Origin: Huiozyma naganishii CBS 8797
Lineage: Eukaryota > Ascomycota > Saccharomycetes > Saccharomycetales > Saccharomycetaceae
Reading direction: 5' to 3'
DNA: 64,000 bases
Assembly (NCBI RefSeq): GCF_000348985.1
Contig: NC_035927.1
Coordinates: 124,001 to 188,000 of the forward strand
The notes below the pieces were generated by a model, which was not told the DNA's origin, searched no databases, and saw nothing but the letters and a program-made list of their open reading frames with translations. Positions 7,963-16,121 of the stretch are shown here, one piece after another. The translations under genes were made by a program, and so were the position numbers. Each line of letters opens with the position of its first letter. Positions within the stretch are counted from its first letter, which is position 1.

Positions 7963-9471
7963 TTACTTTGGAGTGTCGTTTGGCTTGGTAACTGGCCAAG
8001 AGTACTTTCTCTTTTCCAAGTCGATATAGTACTTGTGGTTTGCCAAGTAGTTCATTAGGCCCTTTGGACCTCTGGAGCCGTAAGGGTAGATCTCTGGCTG
8101 TGGAGCGTTTGGACCTTCCAAGTACTCCAAGAGTGGAGTGAACAAGGACCAAGAGACGTCCAATTCGTCGTCTCTGACGAAATTGGAGTGGTCTCCCATT
8201 AGAGCGTCTCTTATCAAGACCTCGTAGGCTTCTGGGATCCAGAAGTTCTGGTACCTCTTTGAGTAAGTCAAGTCCAAGTCTGTGACTTGGGTTTCCTTGG
8301 ACAACCCAGGGACCTTTGCGTTGAACTTGACGTATACGGCCTCGTTTGGTTGGATTCTGATGATCAGTTCGTTGTTTGGGATGTCTGCGAAGACACCTGA
8401 GGCGACGCTCTTGAATTGCATTCTGATTTCGACTTTCCCCTCGTTCAAAGCTTTACCCGCTCTCATGACGACTGGGACACCTTCCCAACGTTCGTTCTGG
8501 ATCTTGAAAGCCATGGACGCGAAAGTGATACACTTGCTTCCTGGTTTAACGGTTTCGTCATCCAAGTAAGCAGGTTTAGTACCGTCCTCTGATTTCCCGT
8601 ACTGGCCGATCAAGATATCGTCGAGGTCAATTGGAGCCATACATTTCAAAACCTTAACTTTTTCGTCTCTGACGGATTCTGGGTCAAAAGAGGCAGGTCT
8701 CTCCATGGTCAACAAAGTCAATACTTGCAACAGATGGTTTTGCATGACGTCTCTGATGATCCCGATGTTGTCGAAGTACCCACCACGGCCCTCAGTCCCG
8801 AATGGTTCCTTGAACGAGATCTGGATACTCTGAACGGACTCTTTGTTCCAAGTAGAGTTCAAGAACGTGTTACCGAACCTCAAAACGAGCAAGTTCTTGA
8901 CAAGCTCTTTGCCCAAGTAGTGGTCGATTCTGAAGATCTCCTCCTCCTTGAACAATGGGGCCAGACTGGCCTGCAAAGCTCTAGCACTGGCCAAGTCGTG
9001 CCCGAATGGCTTCTCAACAATGACCCTCGTCTTCCCCGTCTTTGAGTAAACGAGTTCCTTAATCTTCTGAGCGACACTCAAGAACACAGAGGGTGGCAGC
9101 GCAAAATAGAACAGTCTGTGAGGCTCATCGATCCAGCTTCTTGCCTCGACGGCCTCAATGGCCTTCTTCAACTTCAAGTACCCCTCATCCTTATCGTAAG
9201 CACCGTGCACGTACTCCACCATTTCGAAGAACGCCTCTACTTTCTCAGAAGTCGCATTCTTCAAGTGTGGCACGATCCTGGCCTTCAAATCTTCCTTTGT
9301 CAGTTCAGACCTGGCGTACCCGAAGATCTTGGTGCTTGGGTCCAAGTACCCCTCTCTGAACAGACCGAACAACGCTGGGAAAGTCTTCTTCTTGGCAAGA
9401 TCACCGGAGGCACCGAACACGGTGATGACCGTGTCCTTATCGAATTTTGTAGGGGAAGCAGCGGAGGACAT
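7963..9471 (-). CDS. ZWF1: Glucose-6-phosphate dehydrogenase
   Basis: Zwf1 catalyses the first, NADPH-producing step of the oxidative pentose phosphate pathway in the cytosol. The product is 502 residues, as usual for the family. GASGDLA (20-26) is the NADP-binding fingerprint and RIDHYLGKE (181-189) the glucose-6-phosphate and catalytic site with the active His. EKPFGHDLASA and the C-terminal EIYPYGSRGPKG block are also present. The start at 9471 (MSSAASPTKFDKD) aligns with the family N terminus. The frame stays open upstream through an in-frame ATG at 9564, which would add 31 mostly hydrophobic residues. Because a TATA box sits at 9587-9594, most transcripts should begin below that ATG. Confidence 0.97.
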   Translation of the reverse strand: MSSAASPTKFDKDTVITVFGASGDLAKKKTFPALFGLFREGYLDPSTKIFGYARSELTKEDLKARIVPHLKNATSEKVEAFFEMVEYVHGAYDKDEGYLKLKKAIEAVEARSWIDEPHRLFYFALPPSVFLSVAQKIKELVYSKTGKTRVIVEKPFGHDLASARALQASLAPLFKEEEIFRIDHYLGKELVKNLLVLRFGNTFLNSTWNKESVQSIQISFKEPFGTEGRGGYFDNIGIIRDVMQNHLLQVLTLLTMERPASFDPESVRDEKVKVLKCMAPIDLDDILIGQYGKSEDGTKPAYLDDETVKPGSKCITFASMAFKIQNERWEGVPVVMRAGKALNEGKVEIRMQFKSVASGVFADIPNNELIIRIQPNEAVYVKFNAKVPGLSKETQVTDLDLTYSKRYQNFWIPEAYEVLIRDALMGDHSNFVRDDELDVSWSLFTPLLEYLEGPNAPQPEIYPYGSRGPKGLMNYLANHKYYIDLEKRKYSWPVTKPNDTPK

Positions 9472-9586
9472 TTTGGATAGTTGTACGTTTTCTGTGTGGA
9501 GAGAACGATGCAGAGCGCAATGGCCAAACAGACAGACGAACCAGCAGAACCACAAGTGTACCATAATAGTCTCCTTCCCCAGCAGG

Positions 9587-10145: not shown

Positions 10146-11570
10146 TCACCACGTATTCCCAACGGTAACAAGGTCTCGTTGCTGCTGCTGCTGCTGCGGG
10201 TCCAGTTGCAAGAACTCGTAGTGCAGCGGAGGGGTAGCGGGTACAGCGAGCCGCGAGTCCAATGGGTCCACGCTGGAAAGCTCCGCATGGTAGCGCCGCT
10301 CAAACTGCGCAGTGAGTTCCTCACGTTGCCGGCGGCTTTGCGCATCGTTCACTAGTCCACCACCGTTGATAGCACCGCCTGGAGAGGCGTTCACCTCGAT
10401 GAAGTCTGTCTCGTAGGGCCTGGCAAAGCTGCTGCTGCTGCTGCTAGGCGAGGTGGTGATTGCATTCACACGCCGCTTACGTAGCGATTGAACTCTTCTC
10501 TGCGGATGCGGGTGGGCACGCTGCGAAAGATGCCGCACCATGTTCTGGATGTTACGGAAACCTGAAAGCTCAGTAGCAGAGGCCAGCGTGGCCCCACCAG
10601 CGTGTGGGTCTGTGACCAATCGGAATTCGCGGATGTACTTGTTACGGCCCGGGAGTTCCAAAATACATGAGCCCGGGTATAGCTGCTGTTGCGCTCGTAT
10701 GTACTGGTACGCGTACCCTCCGGAACTGTTCCCCTCGTTGGAACTCCAACTGATCTCCGCAGAGAGTGTGGGCGGGCATGCAGCAGTGTACAGTGACGTC
10801 TCTTGCGTGCGGAATTGCACGAAGTCTGTGTCCGTCTCAGCAAACAGACTTAGAAGTTCGCGTGGTGTGATCACACAGTCTACCTCGGCCTCACATTCCG
10901 TGCGTGATGCTTCCAGTTTTTTGTCAAACACAGCCTGGATCGTTAAATGGTACAGTTCAGGCCCCGTGGCGGCTTTCAAGAGATGTCCCGTCGTTTGCTG
11001 CGGCGATTTCACGTTCACAAGCAGAGGTACAAGCTCGTTCTTTGTCTTCTCAGTGTATATCGTGAAACCAGGGTCAATAGCGGATAGGCAGGGGGCTGCC
11101 CCCTCCTGTTGTGCCTTCCATTGCCGTACCGCTTCGATGGTCCGGTGTAAAGAGATTATCCGGCCGTACTCGATCCCGACCACGTACTGAGCACCGAACC
11201 GCTGCTGGAATACATTGATGAGGCACAGGTCAAACTCCTGAACTGTCATCCCGTAGTGCGTCGCCAGTGAGACCCTGCACTGCGGTGCAATGCTCACCGC
11301 GAGTGGGCGCGAGGTGTCCCTCTTCAGGAACACGTCGTGACTCTGCCTCTGCAACATGATCTCCTCGCTCGATGTGATGCACCCAGAACACGCCAAACAA
11401 TCGGACAGAGTGATACTCACTTTAGAAACGGCCTCGCTCTCCTTCTCAACGACGTACTCCCCATTAGGGTCCACCCCAGAGGGCTCGTGCGTCACCTCTG
11501 TCGTCTTAGTGCATGCAAGCTCAGGGCTGATAAAATCGTTCAAGTCCTCCTCAGACAGAAGCGTCGACAT
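10146..11570 (-). CDS. NAR1: Nar1-like iron-sulfur assembly protein lacking the second cluster's cysteines
   Basis: Nar1 is the [FeFe]-hydrogenase-like protein of cytosolic iron-sulfur assembly (CIA). It passes clusters towards the Cia1-Cia2-Met18 targeting complex. The family binds one [4Fe-4S] at the N terminus and another in the hydrogenase fold. This 474-residue protein keeps the N-terminal ligands C20, C58, C61 and C64. It also keeps fold markers such as VSIAPQCR (92-99), NVKSPQQ (186-192), SSGGYA and GFRNIQNMVRHL. The four usual ligands of the second cluster are all replaced: the SxCPGF position is D167 in SAIDPGF, the MPCFDKKLEA position is V214 in QAVFDKK, and the ACPGGCINGGG positions are S396 and A400. 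A Ser run (about 376-381) and a Gln run (about 459-465) interrupt the C-terminal part, and the chain ends in Trp. The frame is intact, so it may be a specialised duplicate or a radically altered sole copy. Confidence 0.9.
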   Translation of the reverse strand: MSTLLSEEDLNDFISPELACTKTTEVTHEPSGVDPNGEYVVEKESEAVSKVSITLSDCLACSGCITSSEEIMLQRQSHDVFLKRDTSRPLAVSIAPQCRVSLATHYGMTVQEFDLCLINVFQQRFGAQYVVGIEYGRIISLHRTIEAVRQWKAQQEGAAPCLSAIDPGFTIYTEKTKNELVPLLVNVKSPQQTTGHLLKAATGPELYHLTIQAVFDKKLEASRTECEAEVDCVITPRELLSLFAETDTDFVQFRTQETSLYTAACPPTLSAEISWSSNEGNSSGGYAYQYIRAQQQLYPGSCILELPGRNKYIREFRLVTDPHAGGATLASATELSGFRNIQNMVRHLSQRAHPHPQRRVQSLRKRRVNAITTSPSSSSSSFARPYETDFIEVNASPGGAINGGGLVNDAQSRRQREELTAQFERRYHAELSSVDPLDSRLAVPATPPLHYEFLQLDPQQQQQQRDLVTVGNTW

Positions 11571-11772: not shown

Positions 11773-13167
11773 ATGGTACCGTTCTGGAGACACATTGCCC
11801 GCTCACAGTCTAGAACAATGTCGTCTCTCAATGTAGCTGCTCTATCGAAATGGAATTCAGCGTTGGGCAACGACCCAACGCACAACCTCGCGAGTACCGT
11901 CCTCAAGAACTACAACGCGGACGATGCACTGCTCGACAAAACCCGTCTTACGCAGCAGGACAACCGCGTGTTCAACACAAAGATCTCTGCGGATACGGCG
12001 CCCGTGACAAACCAGCGTGCCTCCGGGCGGTGCTGGCTGTTTGCCGCAACGAACGAGCTGCGAATCCCCGTCATGAAGCAACTGAACTTGAAGGAGTTCG
12101 AACTGTCACAGGCGTACCTGTTCTTTTACGACAAGCTCGAGAAGGCCAATTACTTTTTGGACCAGGTCGTCCAATCTAGGGATGAACCCGTCGAGTCCAG
12201 GCTCGTGCAGTACCTGTTGACCTCCCCCACGGAGGACGGTGGACAGTATTCGATGTTCCTCAACATTGTGAAGAAGTACGGCCTGATTCCAAAGGACTTG
12301 TACGGTGACCAAGCGTTCTCAACAACTGCATCTAGAAAGTGGAACGCACTGTTGACAACCAAGTTGAGAGAGTTTGCGCAGCAATTGAGACAGTGCGATG
12401 TTGCGGATCTGCCCCAGATGAGAGAGCAGATGCAAAAGGATATCTTCAAGTTGATCACTTTGTTCATGGATTTACCCCCAGTCGGGCCTAACAACACTTT
12501 CAAATGGGAGTACCAGGACAAGGACAAAAACACACACTCCATCGAATGCACCCCTCTGCAATTTGCCACAGATTACTGTCAGTTGAGCCTACAACCACCA
12601 CCTGTCTCGCTAATCAACGACCCAAGACACCCCTACGGTGAACTGATCAAGATTGACAAGTTAGGTAACGTTATCGGCGGCGACGACGTCCTGTACTTGA
12701 ACGTCGACAACGAAACGCTTTCGAAGCTTGTTGCCAAGCGTCTGTCCAAGGATAAACCCGTGTTCTTTGGCTCACACACCCCAAAGTACATGGATAAGAA
12801 GTTCGGGGTCATGGATGTTCAATTGTGGAACTACAAGGCAGTCGGATACAATTTGACCCAATCGAAGGCGGACCGGATCAAGTACGGTGAGTCGTTGATG
12901 ACTCACGCAATGCTGATCACGGGGTGTCACGTCCCGGAGGGCGAACAGGTCCCAGTGCGGTACCGCGTCGAAAACTCATGGGGGAAGGACTCCGGTAAGG
13001 ACGGCTTGTACGTCATGACGCAAGAGTACTTCGAGGAATACTGTTTCCAAATCGTGGTTGATTTCGAAGATCTTCCTCAAGAACTCGCGGATATCTACAA
13101 GAGCGACAAAGCCGCTAACCCTATAGTCCTACCTATCTGGGACCCAATGGGTGCTCTAGCCGAGTAG
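11773..13167 (+). CDS. LAP3: Bleomycin hydrolase, cysteine aminopeptidase
   Basis: Lap3 (Blh1, Gal6) is a papain-type homohexameric cysteine peptidase of the C1B family. It trims peptides, detoxifies homocysteine thiolactone and bleomycin, and acts in the cytosol with possible mitochondrial forms. The product is 464 residues. The catalytic triad is visible: C87 in [13 protein letters not shown]378 in [11 protein letters not shown] and N401 in [13 protein letters not shown]. The C terminus [10 protein letters not shown] matches the arm that plugs the active site and autoprocesses. There are two in-frame starts, 11773 (with a basic, possibly mitochondrial leader) and 11818 ([12 protein letters not shown]), as in S. 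cerevisiae. It is divergent from NAR1 with about 200 bases between them. No CGG-N11-CCG Gal4 site was seen there. Confidence 0.97.
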
Positions 13168-13640: not shown

Positions 13641-16121
13641 ATGTGGCTTAATCGATTACTGGTTTGTTGCTGGTTGGCCCTTCTCAGCGTCCCTGGGTGG
13701 GCTCTCGACGAAAGTTCTGCTGGTCTAGAGGGAACAGAAACACAACTGTTTGTGATAGAGTCCGTAAAAAGCGTTGACGAGTTGCTCAGCGCTCATCCAC
13801 AATGGAAGTTTGAGAGGGATGTCAGCGGACTGCAGAATCACTACGTGTTTTCACAAGACATGGACGGATCGTTGCAGAAACGTTCCGATTATTCTGACAG
13901 TCCGGACGTTCTGTATTTTGAAAACTTGGTCAAATCTGAATACCTTTTCAAGAGAAGTCCGCTGCCGATAGCTTTACCAGTACCGGTACCAGCGCCACCC
14001 TACGACTCTAGCATGATCCCGCTGAAGGAGGCAGAGGAGAAACTGGAGATTAACGATCCAAATTTCGAAAAACAGTGGCATCTGATCAACGCCAACTACC
14101 CAGGGAATGACGTTAACGTGAAAGACGTGTGGTATGGCAATGTCACAGGGAGCGGTGTTGTAGTGGCCATTGTGGACGACGGGGTCGATTACGAAAACCC
14201 TGATATTGCAGATAATTTCTGCGCAGAAGGGTCCTGGGATTTCAACGATAATACCACGTTGCCCAAACCAAGACTTGCCGACGATTATCACGGAACGCGA
14301 TGCGCCGGTGAGATTGCCGCCTCCAAGAATAATGGATTCTGTGGTATTGGGGTTGCCTATAACTCAAAGGTCTCAGGTCTACGGATACTTTCGGGACCAC
14401 TGACACCGGAAGACGAGGCCGCCTCGTTGATGTATGCGCTTGATGTCAACGATATCTTTTCATGTTCTTGGGGCCCTCAAGACGACGGAAGACATTTGCA
14501 AGGACCTTCGGAACTTGTCCGGAAAGCATTGATCAAGGGTGTCACAGAGGGTAGACAAAAGAAGGGATCCGTATATGTGTTTGCCAGCGGTAACGGGGGT
14601 CATTTCGGCGATAATTGCAACTACGACGGCTACACAAACTCCATATACTCGATCACAATTGGTGCCATTGATCACAAGGGATTACACCCTCCTTACTCGG
14701 AAAGTTGCTCTGCTGTTATGGCTGTCACTTACTCTTCCGGATCAGGCGAGTTCATTCATTCCACAGATATAAACGATCAATGTAGTGATAGACATGGTGG
14801 GACCTCAGCTGCAGCACCCTTGGCAGCTGGTATATATGCGCTCTTACTCGAGGCAAATCCTGAGTTGACGTGGAGAGACGTCCAGTACTTGTCCATATTG
14901 TCGAGCAAAGAGATTACCAATCCTGATGCATTTCCACAGAGTGGTGCTATGGGGAGAAAATACTCACACACCTATGGGTACGGCAGGATTGATGCTTCAG
15001 AATTGGTTACCATGGCAAAAAGTTGGAAAAATGTAAAACCGCAGGCTTGGTACTTTTCAGAATTGGAAAATGTGAGTGGCATGACGAATAGAACCGATAA
15101 TGAATTGAAATCCACAATATCTGTAACAGAAGACAATTTAAAGGATTCAAATCTTGAAAGGGTGGAACACGTCACCATAACAGTTGATATCGAAGCAGAT
15201 ATCAGAGGCCCAATCACAGTAGATTTAGTTTCTCCGTCTGGAATAGTATCCTATCTTGGGGTTGAACGGAATTTCGACCAGTCACCAGATGGGTTCAGAA
15301 GCTGGACTTTCATGTCGGTTGCTCATTGGGGTGAAACCGGTATTGGTGAATGGAAGCTATCTGTCAAAACCAAACGCGATGGTAACACCGTGAAACTGAA
15401 CACCTGGAAACTAAAATTGTTTGGCGAGTCCATTGATCCGTCAAAGGCAGTACCATACGAGTACAATATGGGGAAGGATCCAGACGAGGTGCCCAAGCCA
15501 ATCGCGATTTCTCAGTTGGGGAGTAATACGGCAACAGCAACGTCTCAAACCGCCGAAAACACTGCAGTTGTCACCACAACCACTACATCTCCCTCTTCAT
15601 CAGTATCCGAAGCGGAGCATAGTAAAGTTAACAAATTACCTTCCCCTCGACAGGCAATGCATTACTTCATATCGCTGTTTGTGGTCGCTATCCTTCTTTT
15701 CCTAGTTTACTTCTTCATCTTTGTTAAATCCAGAAGGAGAATCAGAAGGTCTAGAGCGGAAGCGTACGAATTTGATATTATAGATACGGACTCGGACTAC
15801 GATTCCACTATGGACAGCCGGTTATCTTCTAATATGGCGAGTAGTGGAATGCAAGAAAACACTGAAATTGATGACTTTGACTTTGACTTGTCAGACGAGG
15901 ATAACCTAGTAACACCAGCGGATCATTCAGCCGAGACCCCCCAGATAGATTATGTTTTGAATGATTCTTCCCCGACTGAAACGAAGAAAACTGTATCCGG
16001 TGAAGTCAAAGGTAGAGAGGGGAACTCAGGTGATGAAGGGCAAACCTCTAAGGAAGCTGAAAACCCTTTTTTTTCCCCAGACGATCCAACTGACACTAAA
16101 CAAACTCATGATGAGAACTGA
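13641..16121 (+). CDS. KEX2: Kexin, late-Golgi prohormone-processing serine protease
   Basis: Kex2 cuts after Lys-Arg and Arg-Arg in secretory proteins such as pro-alpha-factor. It is a type I membrane protein of the trans-Golgi. The product is 826 residues. It has a signal peptide (MWLNRLLVCCWLALLSVPGWA) and a prodomain ending at K104-R105, followed by the Pro-rich mature N terminus. The subtilisin-type catalytic residues are D179 (AIVDDG), H217 (DYHGTR), oxyanion N318 (ASGNGG) and S389 (GGTSAAAP). Then come the P-domain (about 470-610), a Ser/Thr-rich stalk, one membrane segment at about 675-695, and a cytosolic tail carrying a Tyr-based YEFDIID motif, probably for Golgi retention. All essential residues are intact. 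Confidence 0.97.
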   Translation: MWLNRLLVCCWLALLSVPGWALDESSAGLEGTETQLFVIESVKSVDELLSAHPQWKFERDVSGLQNHYVFSQDMDGSLQKRSDYSDSPDVLYFENLVKSEYLFKRSPLPIALPVPVPAPPYDSSMIPLKEAEEKLEINDPNFEKQWHLINANYPGNDVNVKDVWYGNVTGSGVVVAIVDDGVDYENPDIADNFCAEGSWDFNDNTTLPKPRLADDYHGTRCAGEIAASKNNGFCGIGVAYNSKVSGLRILSGPLTPEDEAASLMYALDVNDIFSCSWGPQDDGRHLQGPSELVRKALIKGVTEGRQKKGSVYVFASGNGGHFGDNCNYDGYTNSIYSITIGAIDHKGLHPPYSESCSAVMAVTYSSGSGEFIHSTDINDQCSDRHGGTSAAAPLAAGIYALLLEANPELTWRDVQYLSILSSKEITNPDAFPQSGAMGRKYSHTYGYGRIDASELVTMAKSWKNVKPQAWYFSELENVSGMTNRTDNELKSTISVTEDNLKDSNLERVEHVTITVDIEADIRGPITVDLVSPSGIVSYLGVERNFDQSPDGFRSWTFMSVAHWGETGIGEWKLSVKTKRDGNTVKLNTWKLKLFGESIDPSKAVPYEYNMGKDPDEVPKPIAISQLGSNTATATSQTAENTAVVTTTTTSPSSSVSEAEHSKVNKLPSPRQAMHYFISLFVVAILLFLVYFFIFVKSRRRIRRSRAEAYEFDIIDTDSDYDSTMDSRLSSNMASSGMQENTEIDDFDFDLSDEDNLVTPADHSAETPQIDYVLNDSSPTETKKTVSGEVKGREGNSGDEGQTSKEAENPFFSPDDPTDTKQTHDEN

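Follow-up and report, generated by a model that had tools for sequence, protein, structure and literature searches.

Nar1, also known as CIAO3 or IOP1 and encoded by YNL240C in Saccharomyces cerevisiae, where it is essential, is canonically a two-cluster protein of the cytosolic iron-sulphur protein assembly (CIA) pathway, with four cysteines forming an N-terminal site and a further four forming a C-terminal site of the type found in [FeFe]-hydrogenases such as CpI, HydA1 and HydABC. A passage of one article states that one Nar1 cluster seems to be permanent and the other transferred (PMC3721309). According to sections of a 2025 paper, which terms the trafficking role of Nar1 unclear, protein made in E. 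coli holds a [4Fe-4S] cluster, presumably at the C-terminal site, a second can be added by reconstitution, and Cys416 is proposed as the anchor of a [2Fe-2S] cluster (PMC12621388). Similarly, excerpts of a 2026 preprint term the basis of the trafficking role poorly defined, locate the cysteines of the N-terminal site next to the acceptor Cia2 and report all eight cysteines in NARF (IOP2), the animal paralogue (PMC12991071). The question addressed here, which Nar1 cluster is delivered and what purpose the C-terminal one has, is approached through the NAR1 gene of Huiozyma naganishii CBS 8797 (NCBI's present name for Kazachstania naganishii), found within a 64,000 nucleotide stretch of DNA (contig NC_035927.1, positions 124,001 to 188,000; the window). 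The gene, the only NAR1 found in this yeast, no longer encodes the C-terminal hydrogenase-type [4Fe-4S] site, and its product probably functions as a carrier of a single cluster.

All four N-terminal cluster cysteines (C20, C58, C61 and C64) are present in the window Nar1, and none (0/4) of the C-terminal, H-cluster-type ligand cysteines is: D166, V214, S396 and A400 stand in their place (Table 1). The corresponding columns of S. cerevisiae Nar1 (row P0014 of the alignment described below) hold cysteines 20, 59, 62, 65, 177, 231, 412 and 416. An earlier note, made from the letters of this DNA, had already described the N-terminal ligands as intact and the C-terminal ones as D167, V214, S396 and A400; its reading stands but for the aspartate, which is off by one, residue 167 being the proline of DPGF. 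It also held that the flanks align and the frame is intact, and both points are borne out. The reading frame is open across 474 codons, cysteine occupies all four C-terminal columns in 149 of 172 homologues, and phmmer aligns D166 and V214, in one significant stretch, with the cysteine ligands in the SCCP and VMPC motifs of hydrogenases, and has S396 and A400 opposite EVMAC.GGC in a weak second stretch (9.8 bits with 8a6t, 3.7 bits with CpI). Misalignment of the C-terminal ligands was rejected, since the columns are unambiguous among Nar1 homologues and the phmmer blocks match. The four codons are at least 2+3+1+2 = 8 base changes away from cysteine codons, making a base-calling error very unlikely.

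The residues around the emptied site have changed as well. Met212 and Pro213, which precede the second ligand and are found in 148/149 and 149/149 intact homologues respectively, are replaced by Gln and Ala, and residue 394, two positions ahead of the third ligand, is Asn, as it also is in S. cerevisiae. Positions 212 and 394 may be linked to the two methionines that line the H-cluster in CpI. The C-terminal tryptophan, the end recognised by the targeting complex, is retained, as it is the last residue in 173/177 homologue rows. The window protein thus resembles canonical Nar1 in its N-terminal cysteines, hydrogenase-like domain and C-terminal Trp, and differs in lacking all four C-terminal cysteines and in the replacement of Met212 and Pro213. 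A confident predicted model gives it the catalytic-domain fold of [FeFe]-hydrogenases, from which it differs in having neither the cysteines of the [4Fe-4S]H subcluster nor the cysteine bridging to the 2Fe centre, the alignment of the third block being weak.

By descent, the gene, judged from its sequence, is a NAR1 orthologue, although its product is not a canonical two-cluster Nar1. It matches PF02906 (Fe_hyd_lg_C) over residues 90-404 with 113.3 bits against a cut-off of 22.1, is similar to S. cerevisiae Nar1 over its full length (49%), groups with canonical Nar1 in the tree and lies in the order ZWF1-NAR1-LAP3-KEX2, the same as that of YNL241-YNL238 on S. cerevisiae chromosome XIV; in the records of homologues NAR1 carries the label YNL240C and LAP3 the label YNL239W. 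The earlier note had offered two alternatives, the first being that a canonical second NAR1 was kept. A six-frame search of the whole genome (10,845,821 bases in 13 contigs) with the PF02906 profile gave one match, at this locus, and no second NAR1, so that this alternative is not supported. The Nar1-like animal protein NARF (IOP2) is likewise unlike the window protein in being the product of a second gene, whereas one gene was found here. That the sequence is a paralogue, pseudogene or assembly error has next to no probability given the intact 474-codon frame, the expected gene order, the single genome match, the base changes counted above and the existence of intermediates in independent records.

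These intermediates emerged from a comparison across Kazachstania and its relatives, as the earlier note had proposed. Two protein searches (best 120 matches of each) gave 177 distinct homologues, of which five gapped rows (P0067, P0068, P0075, P0077 and P0103; 2/5 show S396) were dropped to leave 172 near-complete rows. The C-terminal columns are unambiguous across them; the site is intact in 149/172, and at least one ligand is lost in 23/172. Written as N-terminal/C-terminal ligands over the 177 rows, the patterns are CCCC/CCCC in 148, CCCC/CCSC in 10, CCCC/DCAC in six and CCCC/CCCS in three; CCCC/DVSA (the window), CCCC/DCSC, CCCC/CLSC (K. africana) and CCCC/DSAA (P0042) occur in one row each. 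Rows that have lost precisely three C-terminal ligands are absent. The same site is eroding in the Nar1 of Nakaseomyces, Naumovozyma, Maudiozyma, Arxiozyma and Kazachstania (CCCS, CCSC, DCAC, DCSC, CLSC), where, unlike in the window, two or three ligands are retained; only P0042 is also emptied.

In an 88-row Nar1 tree, built with the four ligand columns masked, all 23 ligand-losing rows fall within one 29-row clade (support 98/80), a subclade of the yeasts that arose after the whole-genome duplication, whose remaining six rows are Saccharomyces, all intact. At least 4, 3, 3 and 3 changes are needed at positions 166, 214, 396 and 400, and at least two from an intact to a non-intact site, one in the Nakaseomyces group (C416S, three rows) and one in Naumovozyma with Kazachstania in the wide sense (C412S). 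All four ligands were lost twice, in the window (DVSA) and in P0042, a Maudiozyma relative (DSAA) that is sister to the DCAC protein of Maudiozyma humilis (100/100). The window sits in a nine-row group (100/99) whose other members retain two or three ligands; the tree gives it no firm place inside that group, and its branch is long (0.9), as are some others (P0079, P0092). On the evidence of alignment and tree, the C-terminal site has been eroded stepwise across the subclade and emptied at least twice, which contradicts the single-step loss of all four ligands in one species that the earlier note implied.

Some of the changes in the pocket look older than the ligand losses, given how residues 394 and 72 are distributed across rows. 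At position 394, 141/149 intact rows have Met, and each of the 25 losing rows (two of them partial sequences) has Asn or Ser; the eight intact rows without Met394 are the six Saccharomyces, P0079 and P0129. Position 72 is Leu in 148/149 intact rows and Met in 22/23 losing rows and P0079. Read on the tree, both changes appear to precede the losses, with Leu72 apparently regained in Saccharomyces and P0060. Other changes accompany the losses: D312N or Y in 20/23 rows, P213A in 15/23 and G404S or N in 10/23. Separately, the very long-branched P0079 has all eight cysteines yet carries M72, Q212, N394 and N404 as losing rows do, and is possibly in an intermediate state.

The N-terminal site has had a different history, with C20, C58, C61 and C64 unchanged in 23/23 ligand-losing rows. 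Elsewhere in the alignment, P0156 (Drechslerella dactyloides) has Thr aligned at C20, the sole such row of 172, which may be a gene-model error. Were Nar1 now reduced to an adaptor for the targeting complex, its N-terminal cluster no longer delivered either, the C-terminal Trp and fold would be kept, as they are; an adaptor would not need the four N-terminal cysteines, and this explanation is very improbable.

With the losses themselves observed, as four C-terminal ligand cysteines gone, four N-terminal cysteines and the C-terminal Trp kept and the gene-wide rate ordinary, we infer as the likeliest step that Nar1 functions on its N-terminal cluster alone. Cfd1-Nbp35 would load this cluster; Nar1, using its basic face together with the C-terminal Trp, would then bind the Cia1-Cia2-Met18 targeting complex and pass the cluster to Cia2. 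The C-terminal domain would be a cluster-free scaffold, with residues suited to the fold where the ligands used to be: Asp capping the N-terminal end of a helix, Val or Leu contributing to packing, and Ser or Ala in tight turns. The changes of Met394 to Asn or Ser and of Leu72 to Met probably preceded the first ligand loss and made it tolerable.

Alternatively, the C-terminal site could continue to bind a cluster or metal through Asp166, Ser396, other cysteines (C98, C161, C232, C265, C302) or small thiols. Asp, which is able to ligate iron, is the replacement at 166 in 9/9 changed rows, set against a rough yardstick from BLOSUM62-implied frequencies in which Asp has a share of 0.038 of Cys replacements. 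D166 nevertheless lies directly ahead of helix 167-176 of the model, and just ahead of a helix in both models, where capping favours Asp without a metal; of the four positions only Asp and Ser are left as possible ligands, since Val and Ala cannot ligate. Among the other cysteines, C232 is kept in 23/23 losing rows, C98 is Cys in 21/23 losing rows against 29/149 intact ones, C265 in 6/23 against 2/149, and C161, a cysteine in the window, is one in 0/149 intact rows. The occurrence of C98 in intact rows too means that it did not arrive as a substitute with the loss, and the emptied P0042 lacks C161, C265 and C302, having Trp, Ser and Arg in their places. Relocated cysteines were rejected on this disagreement between the two emptied proteins, and continued metal binding at the site is unlikely.

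Constraint on the remainder of the protein was assessed at two sets of conserved positions. Among the 104 conserved at >= 85% over all 172 rows (the four ligands and 100 others), the window changes ten: the four ligands plus P23T, L72M, P178N, M212Q, P213A and D312Y, so that all four ligands fall among its changes alongside 6/100 others (P = 4.6e-5). Among the 81 conserved at >= 95% in intact rows, in which the ligand columns are invariant by construction, it changes the four ligands and 4/77 others (P = 4.2e-5). The window's end-branch ratio of NAR1 to its neighbour LAP3 is 2.9, ninth of 24 matched species, the range among intact rows being 0.83 to 12.33 and the value for all branches combined about 2.3; with so ordinary a ratio, no visible overall acceleration of the gene came with the emptying of the site. 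The highest ratio of the 24 pairs, 12.3, belongs to P0092 (Vanderwaltozyma polyspora), which keeps eight cysteines.

A number of observations weigh against a working one-cluster carrier. Of the 100 conserved positions that are not ligands, 4 to 13 are changed in each of the 23 losing rows and 0 to 8 in each of 50 intact rows (those among P0001-P0074); the window's six are inside the intact range and P0042's 13 outside it. The excess is modest and lies partly beside the cluster site, and some relaxation in losing rows, most of all P0042, is therefore possible. Gene-wide decay is not supported, given the NAR1/LAP3 ratio, though losing rows do change conserved positions somewhat more. The proposal of the earlier note that selection acts on the fold is thus favoured by the intact frame, the ordinary ratio and the confident model, and qualified by this excess. 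The models were folded on alignments of mostly intact homologues and without cofactor, and so cannot prove the stability of the apo-domain. The mutagenesis of Urzica et al. in 2009 reportedly found both motifs to matter in S. cerevisiae. S. cerevisiae Nar1, once purified, contains a [4Fe-4S] cluster, presumably at the C-terminal site according to part of the 2025 paper (PMC12621388), implying that the site does something there.

The second alternative of the earlier note, a CIA pathway working without the C-terminal cluster, is the better of the two, and would be consistent with the components found in the same genome: Cfd1, Nbp35, Dre2, Met18 and a Cia2-like open reading frame. A search for Cia2 over the genome with PF01883 at E 0.001 gave no match; a looser search found the Cia2-like frame (E 0.0016, 22.1 bits, under the Pfam cut-off of 23.5), which carries the block THCSLATLIG, its THCS identified by inspection against the expected motif. 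Inspected in the same way, the four N-terminal cysteines and CPNC of Nbp35, the CPYC of Cfd1 and the eight cysteines of Dre2 are all kept, and the Nbp35 CPNC aligns with that of a Cfd1 of known structure.

Some client proteins have themselves lost ligands, as would fit a wider retreat in which Nar1 carries less, owing either to a smaller demand for clusters among its clients or to another route of clusters to the targeting complex. In this one genome, the DNA primase large subunit, compared with yeast Pri2, has C336 replaced by Ser (TCC) and C474 by Asn (AAC), with C417 (TGT) and C434 (TGT) kept and no other cysteine present in its C-terminal domain as a replacement. In S. cerevisiae Pri2, part of one report describes three double mutants among C336, C417 and C474, C336/C474 included, as temperature-sensitive at 37 C, and C434A alone as severe (PMC4348247). 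Dna2 has Ser in place of its fourth ligand, and, among three HhH-GPD matches, one endonuclease III-like protein aligns a Cys at only 1/4 Fe-S positions. S. cerevisiae Ntg1 is not known to carry the cluster either, and this last case may therefore be ordinary. Against such a retreat, Rad3 and Pol3 (column by column against solved homologues) and Chl1, Rev3 and Rli1 (by inspection) keep their cluster cysteines, and the N-terminal site of Nar1 is untouched, leaving it rather unlikely. That the lineage runs its essential cytosolic Fe-S machinery on a one-cluster Nar1 while shedding client ligands (Pri2 2/4, Dna2 1/4) is put forward only tentatively. Within NAR1 itself there are two runs of six identical codons, the serine run falling in a low-confidence loop (pLDDT, the predicted local distance difference test score, about 53 over residues 371-380) that precedes the third ligand block.

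Table 1. Features of the NAR1 locus (positions in the window) and of client genes elsewhere in the genome
Feature	Position	Strand	Remarks
NAR1 orthologue, 474 amino acids	10146..11570	-	open reading frame; PF02906 E 1.9e-32; single genome match; homologues annotated NAR1 / YNL240C
C20 (TGC)	11511..11513	-	N-terminal ligand, kept
C58 (TGT), C61 (TGT), C64 (TGC), in CLACSGC	11379..11399	-	N-terminal ligands, kept
D166 (GAC)	11073..11075	-	first C-terminal ligand position (S. cerevisiae C177)
Q212 and A213	10932..10937	-	in place of Met-Pro preceding second ligand
V214 (GTG)	10929..10931	-	second C-terminal ligand position (S. cerevisiae C231)
N394	10389..10391	-	in place of Met, two residues ahead of third ligand
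S396 (TCT)	10383..10385	-	third C-terminal ligand position (S. cerevisiae C412)
A400 (GCT)	10371..10373	-	fourth C-terminal ligand position (S. cerevisiae C416)
W474	10149..10151	-	C-terminal Trp, targeting-complex recognition end, kept
Six-Gln run in NAR1	10179-10196	-	
Six-Ser run in NAR1	10428-10445	-	
ZWF1 orthologue (glucose-6-phosphate dehydrogenase)	7963..9564	-	syntenic neighbour
LAP3 orthologue (bleomycin hydrolase)	11773..13167	+	syntenic neighbour and rate control
KEX2-type proprotein convertase	13641..16121	+	syntenic neighbour
Pri2, DNA primase large subunit (L006)	G000:C1:1125755-1126588	-	two of four [4Fe-4S] ligands lost
Dna2 (L015)	G000:C5:111199-111840	-	Ser in fourth cluster-ligand column; other three cysteines kept
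Endonuclease III-like protein (L016)	G000:C4:872613-873056	-	one of three HhH-GPD matches; Cys at 1/4 Fe-S positions

No published statement of this ligand loss in Nar1 was found in the literature searched, most subscription papers lying outside the search, so that its novelty is unproven. Such homologues are easily missed: a survey of Nar1 C-terminal tripeptides, as described in part of the 2026 preprint, excluded sequences short of any of the eight cysteines (PMC12991071). Loss of a single ligand often leaves the cluster bound, according to a passage citing Urzica 2009 (PMC4523923), and the relatives with one loss may therefore still hold a C-terminal cluster.

That the C-terminal site has been emptied twice with the other site kept suggests that living yeasts can do without its cluster in CIA, and makes the N-terminal cluster the likelier cargo. 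The proposal of Cys416 as a [2Fe-2S] anchor is affected too, because the window has Ala at this residue and the Nakaseomyces group has Ser. For experiments in S. cerevisiae, a ready series is offered by those relatives that have lost one or two ligands. If a one-cluster Nar1 and the shedding of client ligands are both true of this lineage, then the C-terminal cluster, the Cys416-anchored [2Fe-2S] cluster and a fully ligated primase cluster would all be dispensable, and the N-terminal cluster alone would be delivered.
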